Assembly (NCBI RefSeq): GCF_005281475.1
Contig: NZ_CP040106.1
Location: forward strand, 3,996,501 to 4,060,500
Length of the DNA: 64,000 bases
Origin: Echinicola rosea
Lineage (GTDB): Bacteria; Bacteroidota; Bacteroidia; Cytophagales; Cyclobacteriaceae
Direction of reading: 5' to 3'
Shown here: positions 41,004 to 48,225 of the stretch, piece by piece
Layout of the letters: each line of letters begins with the position of its first letter
How positions within the stretch are numbered: the first letter of the stretch is position 1
The notes under the pieces: model-generated
Seen by the model: only the letters and a program-made list of their open reading frames with translations
What the model was told of the DNA's origin: nothing
Database searches by the model: none
Made by a program: the position numbers and the translations under genes

Positions 41004-42395
41004 TTAGCTACTTTTCATCTTTTCATTCGCCCCTCCGATGAGCTCTAAATGAGGATAATCCTGACGAAGGGTTTGTAATTCTTCGTTGCTCACTGCTGTT
41101 TTCCATAGGTAAATTTTCAGTTTTTGAGGTGTCTTTGCCAATGCGTCAAATCCTGCTTTTGAGATACCTGTGCCATATACATTGACCACCTCCAAATGGG
41201 GTAAATTGGCCAAGGTTTCCATTTGTTCATCAGACACATTGGAGTGCCGAAGGTCAATTCGGATCAGGTTTTGCATCTTGCCTATCGCTCCAACGTCTTC
41301 AGGAGACAGCTTAGCTCCAGAAAAATCCGCATACACGATATTCCGGGCCATATCTTCCAATAGGCCAGGTGCAGAGGATGTAAGCTTATTTGACGTCATC
41401 CTTAGTTCCAGTATTTGACTGTCAGGCGTAAGCCTGGACACCATCAGTCCAGTTTCATTTGCTTGTGCAATTTTTTCATCGTCCACCTCAGGTGGGAGCA
41501 ATTTTTCTATAAAGGAACGGGGACTGGCATCTACCCCATAATCCCGGTCCATCACGGCTATTATTTCCTGAGGGAGCTCTTCACCTGCCAGTTTTAAGCT
41601 GTCAGTAGCCCCTTGGGATACCCACCACTTCAATAGCGCTATCTCTCCATAAGATAAGCCGTTTCCTTGTGGTGGCATGTATTTTTCATTGTCCGTAGGC
41701 AGTGTCACCCGGTGTACAAGCTCACTTTCCAAGCTCGAACTACCAGACAAAACGCTCCCTTCGTCCCCTCCTGATTGTATGGCCTCATAACTGCTCAAAT
41801 CAAGCCCTCCTTTTGCTTTGGAGGGATTATGGCATCCGGTACATTTCTCTTCCAGAATTGGCTGAATGATATGGGAAAACACCAAAATAGAATCTGAATT
41901 GCCCGGCAATGTGTTTTGGCTATTTCCATTCGGAGACATCCCCGCCAATCTCTTAATGGGAGCAGGTGCATGAGCCAATAAATAATCAGACCCATGGGTC
42001 AAGTTTCCGCCCAAATGTCCTGTCAGGGAAACCAAGATAAAGGAAACCGCTACCAGCCCATAGGCAATTACTGGGCTTTTTTTATCCCACTTCTTGGACT
42101 TTGACCAATACAAAACAGCGGTCAACACCACTAAGGCAAATCCCATCCATTTATGCAATGATAAAGCGCCTGCCTCGTAGCCACCACCTTGGGCAAGCAA
42201 TAGGCCGATCAGTGCACTCATCAGTGCTCCTACCGAACCGGCCAAATAAGACCAAGCAGTCACCTTCCTGAGATCAGGCTCCTTGGACTTCCTGAATACC
42301 GCGACCAATTCCAGTAATAAACCAAATAGTAAGAAACCTATCGGAAGGTGCACCACCAAAGGGTGAAACCTTCCTATAAACTGCGACCAATCCAT
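41004..42395 (-). CDS. DUF2231 membrane protein fused to cytochrome c and leucine-rich-repeat domains
   Basis: 463 residues. Four membrane helices (about 10-33, 45-67, 82-97, 106-127) form a DUF2231-like unit starting FIGRFHPLVVHLPIG with several His. A periplasmic planctomycete-type cytochrome c domain follows: haem motif CTGCH (185-189) and axial Met in YMPPQG (M240). The C-terminus (about 325-455) reads as ribonuclease-inhibitor-like leucine-rich repeats (LIRIDLRHSNVSDEQMETLANLPHLEVV type; ~23-residue period). It is the last gene of the DUF1553/DUF1501/NHL operon, 2 bp after the NHL gene, and probably links periplasmic electron transfer to the membrane. Function inferred only. Confidence 0.88.
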   Translation of the reverse strand: MDWSQFIGRFHPLVVHLPIGFLLFGLLLELVAVFRKSKEPDLRKVTAWSYLAGSVGALMSALIGLLLAQGGGYEAGALSLHKWMGFALVVLTAVLYWSKSKKWDKKSPVIAYGLVAVSFILVSLTGHLGGNLTHGSDYLLAHAPAPIKRLAGMSPNGNSQNTLPGNSDSILVFSHIIQPILEEKCTGCHNPSKAKGGLDLSSYEAIQSGGDEGSVLSGSSSLESELVHRVTLPTDNEKYMPPQGNGLSYGEIALLKWWVSQGATDSLKLAGEELPQEIIAVMDRDYGVDASPRSFIEKLLPPEVDDEKIAQANETGLMVSRLTPDSQILELRMTSNKLTSSAPGLLEDMARNIVYADFSGAKLSPEDVGAIGKMQNLIRIDLRHSNVSDEQMETLANLPHLEVVNVYGTGISKAGFDALAKTPQKLKIYLWKTAVSNEELQTLRQDYPHLELIGGANEKMKSS

Positions 42396-42397
42396 CG

Positions 42398-48000: not shown

Positions 48001-48225
48001 TGCAGTCTCTGCCATATGCAGCTGCAACCCCGCTTTTATCGTCCCCTTGTCCGGGCCATGACAGGCAAAACATTTGTCTGAAAGTATCGGTTTTACATCC
48101 GCATTAAAATCCAATTGCTCAGGAAGGTCATTATACACTTCTTCTATTTCGGGAGGAATCGGCTCCGAACACGACCAAAATATAATATTGATCAAGAAAA
48201 ATATTAAACGTATATAACTTTTCAT
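45001..48225 (-). CDS. PSD1-type multidomain lipoprotein: cytochrome c, DUF1549, LamG, DUF1553
   Basis: 1074 residues. A hydrophobic N-terminus ends in FWSC (Cys19), a probable lipoprotein signal. Then a PSCyt1 domain with haem motif CFACH (52-56) and GPDKG, a DUF1549 domain (about 160-370; [27 protein letters not shown]), a LamG/concanavalin-like lectin domain (about 465-640; [24 protein letters not shown]) and DUF1553 (about 760-1030; [50 protein letters not shown]). First gene of the operon and divergent from an AraC regulator. The lectin insertion suggests it meets polysaccharide. Known mainly from Planctomycetes; enzyme activity unproven. Confidence 0.93.
   Translation of the reverse strand: [1074 protein letters not shown]

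Follow-up and report, generated by a model that had tools for sequence, protein, structure and literature searches.

Gene organization of the operon

The window analysed here is a 64-kb stretch (64,000 nucleotides) of the Echinicola rosea genome (NZ_CP040106.1, positions 3,996,501 to 4,060,500; 6.06 Mb, one contig), and the subject of this report is a compact operon occupying its positions 48225 to 41004, together with its relation to red-algal galactans. In reading order, 3 nt separate the first open reading frame (ORF) from the second, the second and third overlap by 1 nt, and 2 nt separate the third from the fourth; they encode a PSCyt1-PSCyt2-LamG-PSD1 protein, a DUF1501 protein, an NHL beta-propeller and a membrane protein combining DUF2231, PSCyt1 and leucine-rich repeats (LRR; Table 1). 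Both this tight packing on the minus strand and the domain composition had been described in the original prediction, made from the sequence alone, and they agree with the ORF positions and Pfam matches (LRR by phmmer); the divergent AraC regulator, the GH117 genes and the sulfatase named there were found as well. The operon is flanked on one side by GH117 and genes of the 3,6-anhydro-L-galactose (AHG) catabolism type, and on the other by the sulfatase, a second GH117-type gene and a SusC/SusD pair, so that the features by which an agar polysaccharide utilisation locus is recognised (nearby SusCD pair, GH117 and AHG pathway) all lie around it. Scanning the region between the operon and the AraC gene for promoters and terminators gave no usable site, and no tRNA was found in the 64-kb window.

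Table 1. Features of the operon and its surroundings (positions within the window)
Feature	Position	Strand	Basis
PSCyt1-PSCyt2(DUF1549)-LamG-PSD1(DUF1553) protein, lipoprotein-type, 1074 aa	45001..48225	-	Pfam
DUF1501 protein, predicted twin-arginine (Tat) export, 497 aa, alkaline-phosphatase-superfamily fold (modelled)	43504..44997	-	Pfam, AlphaFold2 (AF2) model, fold matches, conservation
NHL beta-propeller, predicted Tat export, 368 aa, PAL-like	42398..43504	-	Pfam, conservation, structure matches
DUF2231-PSCyt1(haem c motif)-LRR membrane protein, 463 aa	41004..42395	-	Pfam, phmmer for LRR
AraC-family regulator, divergent from operon	48336..49202	+	Pfam
Intergenic region between operon and AraC gene	48226..48335	none
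GH117 3,6-anhydro-alpha-L-galactosidase (context)	38965..40161	-	PDB 4ak5 match, 1.8e-151
Second GH117-type gene (context)	50681..51943		4u6d 3.3e-228; 4ak5 9e-59
Sulfatase and second GH117-type gene (context)	49259..51943	-	Pfam, structure match
AHG cycloisomerase (context)	34433..35569		5xd7 match, 1.7e-189
AHG catabolism-type genes (context): RhaT-type transporter, aldose epimerase, AHG cycloisomerase, aldehyde dehydrogenase, KduD-like short-chain dehydrogenase, zinc alcohol dehydrogenase	32270..38849	-
SusC/SusD pair (context)	54310..59312	+

Haem motifs and the membrane protein

All domains of the 1074-aa protein (PSCyt1, PSCyt2, Laminin_G_3 and PSD1) were called by Pfam, with 59.6, 289.2 and 337 bits for PSCyt1, PSCyt2 and PSD1 against cut-offs of 22, 29.8 and 28.5, respectively. 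It carries two CxxCH motifs, at residues 52 and 341, the latter inside PSCyt2, and these features together with the adjacent DUF1501 gene place it in the PSCyt1-PSCyt2-PSD1 family. A third CxxCH, at residue 185 of the DUF2231 protein, raises the total for the operon to three instead of the two c-type haems counted originally; the motif scan found none in the DUF1501 and NHL proteins. In the structure search, matches of the PSCyt/PSD1 protein were taken up by the LamG domain and not by the helical PSCyt2/PSD1 part.

DUF2231 and PSCyt1 were also called by Pfam in the 463-aa membrane protein; its LRR part had no Pfam call and was recognised by phmmer, which finds LRR proteins over residues ~304-454. 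Four histidines of the membrane domain (H11, H16, H81 and H127) as well as C185, C188, H189 and M240 are invariant in 42 DUF2231-PSCyt1 sequences. The number of membrane histidines would be right for two b haems, and Met240 may be the sixth ligand of haem c. As to the redox function originally proposed for the operon, haem motifs and membrane histidines are present, but no flavin, pyrroloquinoline quinone (PQQ), molybdenum or nicotinamide adenine dinucleotide (NAD) domain was found in any of the four proteins (Pfam, E<=0.001) and DUF1501 resembles a modified metallohydrolase fold, so that a redox role is still best worded conditionally.

DUF1501 protein and the propeller

The DUF1501 protein (Pfam match E 8.3e-164) has a Tat-type arginine pair, R24 R25, invariant in 66/66 aligned sequences, and the corresponding R5 R6 of the NHL protein are invariant in 25/25, which is in line with both being predicted Tat substrates, as was supposed at the outset. 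In the window branch, DUF1501 proteins begin with a conserved MxxHH stretch ahead of these arginines (alignment consensus). The AF2 model (pLDDT 78, pTM 0.79) matches the alkaline-phosphatase superfamily, whose fold the protein is thus modelled to have, albeit with low Foldseek TM-scores of 0.28-0.38. Residues D355, H357, E398, R401 and H172 are invariant in the 66 sequences and H419 nearly so, and all six are kept in 21 or 22 of 22 DUF1501 proteins adjacent to DUF1800; they probably constitute a metal site. If the TG anchor and the fold are read correctly, invariant His172 seems to take the nucleophile place of the superfamily, although for the N-terminal half that holds it the comparison with sulfatases was one of fold and motif, not of sequence. 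In the C-terminal half the position of the metal Asp/Glu agrees with sulfatases and nucleotide pyrophosphatase/phosphodiesterases (NPP); a literature search for residue roles in NPP found nothing.

With such a fold one may suppose that DUF1501 is a metal-dependent phospho- or sulfo-ester hydrolase which provides the main activity, that the cytochromes only sense or set the redox state, and that oxidation does not take place on the sugar. The shared metal position is what one would expect of such an enzyme, but the formylglycine motif (C/S)x(P/A)xR is absent in 26/26 DUF1501 proteins scanned from outside DUF1800 loci, and a histidine stands at the apparent nucleophile place; we consider this explanation unlikely. 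Matches to the motif, counted at any place in the protein, do occur in 2/22 DUF1501 proteins from DUF1800 loci. Some relatives bear the NCBI name "sulfatase", and the absent motif suggests that for some DUF1501 proteins this name is wrong.

The Pfam match of the NHL protein has an E of 4.8e-6, and H67, H109, E176, Y191, H225, R243, H340 and D341 are invariant in 25/25 sequences. Most propeller matches below 1e-3 among solved structures are TRIM, Brat and Thin proteins, and the sole catalytic propeller is the lyase part (PAL) of peptidylglycine amidating monooxygenase (PAM). PAL is matched over one continuous stretch of 95 residues (7e-9 in one search; 3fvz 5.1e-10 and 5wm0 1.9e-8 in another), whereas eight propellers of the TRIM/Brat/Thin type outscore it in total through several short stretches. 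By offset reckoning along the 976-residue chain 5wm0, Y191, H225 and R243, the only three residues matched in this way, fall on 652-654, 686-688 and 704-706. The catalytic residues of PAL, for whose roles a literature search gave no confirmation, we take to be Tyr654, His690 and Arg706, which leaves the histidine two positions off. With residue roles presumed in this manner, the similar invariant His/Tyr/Arg/Asp set (H109, H225, H340, Y191, R243, D341) makes the NHL protein appear to resemble the zinc lyase PAL.

The same propeller also allows a different assignment, namely a periplasmic sugar dehydrogenase with its lactonase: galactose, L-galactose or anhydrogalactose would be the aldose that PSD1/DUF1501 oxidises, the resulting lactone would be opened by the six-bladed NHL protein in the manner of SMP-30/gluconolactonase, and the electrons would go to the haems. 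It accords with the weak SGL (gluconolactonase) matches in 4/25 NHL members (best 0.01), with the cytochrome and membrane cytochrome of the operon and with a gene of the altronate/galactarate-dehydratase type next to the operon of a Zobellia relative. The cofactor domains listed above are missing, however, and the invariant histidine pattern, with residue roles as presumed, fits PAL better than gluconolactonase; this scheme is possible but rather doubtful.

Related loci

Generality of the operon was estimated from the best 80 of at least 586 DUF1501 relatives (65-91% identical to the window protein), the closest among the matches listed belonging to Echinicola species (98% at best); neighbours were clustered for 82 loci. 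PSD1 lies directly upstream of DUF1501 in 74/80 loci. The full four-gene order was registered in 20/80, so that not all members need NHL and DUF2231; six loci show this order minus NHL, one of them with the complete order at another place, and in seven NHL follows downstream and no DUF2231 was recognised; some loci are cut by contig ends. A divergent AraC gene just upstream of PSD1 is present in 17/80 loci, both with and without GH117, and PSD1, DUF2231, NHL and AraC are the only neighbours shared by more than 10 of the 82 loci. In nine loci (L010, L011, L013, L024, L026, L027, L029, L087 and L097) a tetratricopeptide repeat (TPR) gene like that at 52293-53957 of the window, beside SusC, stands upstream of PSD1 in divergent orientation, perhaps in place of the AraC regulator or in addition to it. 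Two genomes seemed to have a PSD1-DUF1501 fusion, with frames of 1599 and 1619 aa; this was rejected, as these frames run through stretches reading N.

Two further clusters of the same kind were found in the Echinicola rosea genome. One (L005, 3066-19127, at ~453-469 kb of the genome) combines two PSD1 proteins, NHL, DUF1501 and DUF2231-PSCyt1 amid six propeller genes of glycosidase type, five with GH43 Pfam matches (one under the cut-off) and one BT_3657/GH32-like, and probably serves another substrate. The other (L006, 2720-10923, at ~4.864-4.872 Mb) has PSD1, DUF1501 and a 710-aa DUF2231-PSCyt1 protein with a longer C-terminus beside sigma/anti-sigma-type genes; when it was read by eye, no NHL and no carbohydrate gene was seen. 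The PSD1 proteins of the two clusters (764, 774 and 777 aa) are too short for a LamG insert, and the one of L006 has no LamG among precomputed domains. Based on this make-up one can assume that the core consists of PSD1-DUF1501 and the DUF2231 cytochrome, the rest being optional.

Association with GH117 and the agar-responsive unit of Zobellia

The 20 four-gene loci represent 19 genomes, in which co-occurrence with GH117 was examined as the original prediction had suggested. The result was divided: 11 genomes have a strong GH117 match (E <1e-140) and include Echinicola, Marinoscillum, Reichenbachiella, Flammeovirga, Flavicella and Wenyingzhuangia, all presumably marine, and eight, including Chitinophaga, Mucilaginibacter, Daejeonella and Flavihumibacter, have none at 1e-20. 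Among 15 other genomes searched, two gave a strong match and two a weak one. Of 194 genomes of the order of Echinicola rosea, 46 have the NHL gene and 13 have GH117, with an overlap of 11 (Fisher 2.6e-6); ten of these 11 come from one family and so are not independent.

In Flavobacteriaceae, the family of Flavicella, 84 of 397 genomes have DUF1501 at 1e-200, 37 of them with a close protein (best match >=78% to a Zobellia protein) and 47 with a distant one (<=67%). GH117 was searched at E<=1e-60 in 80 of the 397 genomes and detected in 26/37 with close DUF1501, in 0/28 with the distant protein only and in 0/15 without a DUF1501 match at 1e-200; since 8/28 of the distant-only genomes are <=2.0 Mb, genome size and life-style partly confound this contrast. 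A distance of at most 50 kb between the two genes was observed in 8/26 genomes versus 1.1 expected from random independent placement (P 6e-6); as the eight include three Zobellia-like relatives and two others that group as sisters in the tree, they amount to about six lineages.

A quick tree of DUF1501 was built from 75 rows (44 GH117-positive, 29 negative and two paralogues), leaving out duplicate loci and rows of unknown GH117 status and using SH-aLRT supports only. GH117 status changes 10 times along it versus 24.3 in shuffles. The clade of the window protein, drawn from Cyclobacteriaceae, Reichenbachiellaceae, Flammeovirgaceae and Lewinellaceae, is positive in 18/18 rows (support 91, not starred), and a Flavobacteriaceae clade in 17/17, nested in a larger clade with 24 positive and seven negative rows; a clade of Spirosoma, Dyadobacter, Chitinophaga and Mucilaginibacter types is negative in 14/14.

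Response to agar can be approached through Zobellia galactanivorans, in which cluster ZGAL_4657-4669 (GH117, a TonB-dependent receptor/SusD-type pair, sulfatase and two regulators) is induced by agar, and ZGAL_4688-4690 is also agar-responsive, its link being described as "still unclear" and ZGAL_4688 as a beta-propeller, InterPro IPR011042 (Thomas et al. 2017, PMC5613140). The genes were counted (ORFs >=80 aa) in a relative, G539 (one contig, 5.07 Mb), whose DUF1501 is 98% identical to a protein (P0117) named Zobellia laminariae. With the SusD gene that opens its GH117/AHG cluster chosen by us as the counterpart of ZGAL_4657, the NHL gene falls on ZGAL_4688, and DUF1501 and PSD1 fall on 4689 and 4690; under the same anchor a regulator-like gene would land just outside the published cluster. 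From this count and the description, not from a sequence match, we infer that ZGAL_4688-4690 are orthologues of NHL-DUF1501-PSD1. An AraC gene is divergent at the unit of G539 as in the window, and no DUF2231 gene adjoins it. Between GH117 and this unit (L168, 7664-19012) lie P450, ferredoxin-reductase-type, PhyH dioxygenase and altronate/galactarate-dehydratase-type genes, presumably for use of galactose ethers and L-galactose by analogy.

Thus, because of the co-occurrence, the 50-kb linkage, the tree and the inferred agar-responsive orthologue, the subfamily of the window is very probably linked to red-algal galactan use beyond chance of position. The original claim that the operon serves galactan use holds in this sense for the subfamily and does not hold as a general statement: occurrence of the four-gene order in 8/19 genomes free of GH117 indicates a general module with a galactan branch. 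Conservation of the four genes at unrelated positions in species without galactan loci, together with lack of induction by red-algal polysaccharides, had been named in advance as what would speak against the claim, and half of this picture was observed, with related clusters lying elsewhere in the own genome as well.

Several facts weigh against the galactan link and the interpretation built on it. GH117 is absent in 11/37 Flavobacteriaceae genomes with close DUF1501 at the threshold used, and 2/13 GH117 genomes of the own-order sample have no NHL gene; the two genes are on different contigs, scored as misses, in 9/26 genomes; only one of the 20 four-gene loci has GH117 in its stored flanks, and the AHG cycloisomerase is present in this one and one other. 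To these should be added the GH117-free four-gene genomes, the single family dominating the own-order sample, the small distant-only genomes, the optional NHL and DUF2231 genes (the latter missing beside the unit of G539), the low TM-scores, the limited comparison of the DUF1501 N-terminal half and the presumed residue numbers of PAL. Some of them would be expected if a general marine envelope operon merely happened to stay near galactan genes in agar-degrading lineages and had no part in galactan use, as would the same gene order in GH117-free genomes and the clusters L005 and L006. Physical linkage of the genes (even with close kin among the eight genomes), two uniformly GH117-positive clades and the agar response of the putative orthologue speak against such hitch-hiking, and we regard it as quite improbable.

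Proposed function

The interpretation that we prefer, with a probability of about 0.4, is that the operon represents a galactan-dedicated branch, with its own AraC regulator, of the widespread PSCyt1-PSCyt2-PSD1 and DUF1501 envelope module, performing oxidation and lyase reactions on red-algal oligosaccharides and coupled to the respiratory chain. The LamG domain would hold the oligosaccharide, and the dihaem PSCyt/PSD1 protein with the metal site of DUF1501 would oxidise or hydroxylate a position of the sugar that adjoins an ether or acetal oxygen. The unstable product would be split by the PAL-like NHL protein, with its metal held by the central histidines, and haem c and the probable b haems of the DUF2231 protein would connect these reactions with the quinone pool, electrons moving in either direction. 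The GH117/AHG pathway encoded nearby would take up the products.

In a more far-reaching form, which has only a small chance of being correct, the proposal becomes a two-step reaction on carbohydrate similar to that of the monooxygenase (PHM) and lyase (PAL) parts of PAM: a dihaem-metal complex of PSCyt2/PSD1 and DUF1501, supplied with or relieved of electrons by the quinone-linked membrane cytochrome, would hydroxylate the C-H beside the ether or acetal oxygen of agar or porphyran, and a PAL-like zinc lyase would cleave the hemiketal. If this were true, PHM/PAL-like modules with other lectin domains would provide Planctomycetes, Verrucomicrobia and Bacteroidota with a general oxidative route for cutting glycans, alongside glycoside hydrolases.

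Some other genes of the window may be mentioned. A haem peroxidase with two Pfam peroxidase stretches (21950-24217) lies ~17 kb from the operon; at 15242-20186 a TonB receptor is followed by a gene with no Pfam call and one for a PepSY_TM protein, a group resembling iron or haem uptake; and a protein with an intradiol dioxygenase-type (Dioxygenase_C) domain (30557-31282) adjoins the AHG genes.

Comparison with known systems

In some Planctomycetes a single genome encodes dozens of PSCyt/PSD proteins; PSD1 and PSCyt2 domains occur 41 times each in R. baltica (PMC2754498). PSCyt genes are denser in epilimnion genomes, and for those near sulfatases a carbohydrate role on mono- or oligomers has been proposed (He et al. 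2017, PMC5615132). The genes of Planctomycetes and Verrucomicrobia (PMC5615132, PMC2754498) share with the operon their domains, carbohydrate-binding inserts, a constant neighbour gene and the vicinity of sulfatases. They differ in that no substrate is stated in the sections of He et al. dealing with them, whereas here a subfamily is tied to GH117/agar and its DUF1501, NHL and DUF2231 partners are analysed. In the literature searched, no function was found for PSCyt/PSD proteins and no publication treating DUF1501 and DUF1553 together.

The DUF1501-DUF1800 pair (PMC5122149) is alike in that a Tat-exported DUF1501 gene stands beside a partner of unknown function. DUF1501 adjoins DUF1800 in 22/30 DUF1800 loci; unlike PSCyt/PSD1, the latter has CxxCH in 0/30. 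Profile comparison by hhalign gave a weak colinear similarity of DUF1800 and PSCyt2-PSD1 (19-47% over 44-160 columns; controls 0-1.6%), which is suggestive of their homology, and the DUF1501-DUF1800 and DUF1501-PSD1 pairs may be one ancient system.

With sulfatases (S1) and NPP phosphodiesterases DUF1501 shares the modelled fold and the metal position, and it differs from them by the invariant histidine at the apparent nucleophile place and by the missing formylglycine motif. The PAL part of PAM is similar to the NHL protein in its NHL propeller and conserved residues, with the reservation on their roles made above; unlike in PAM, the four operon proteins have no copper monooxygenase domain (Pfam), and the NHL protein has a Tat signal.

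The agar/AHG loci of Zobellia galactanivorans have GH117, AHG catabolism, SusCD and the putative orthologous unit in common with the window; in the passages of the paper concerning this unit it is left unexplained and only a beta-propeller is named (PMC5613140). Thus, the PSCyt1-PSCyt2-PSD1/DUF1501 assemblies were already known, though uncharacterised, and what is added here is the substrate class for one branch, a putative orthologue that responds to agar, some insight into what two of the partners are, and the membrane exit. A subfamily tied to a single class of polysaccharide, and putatively agar-responsive in a culturable marine model, offers a defined substrate class, a three-gene target and clear assays, which makes this enigmatic family accessible to experiment.

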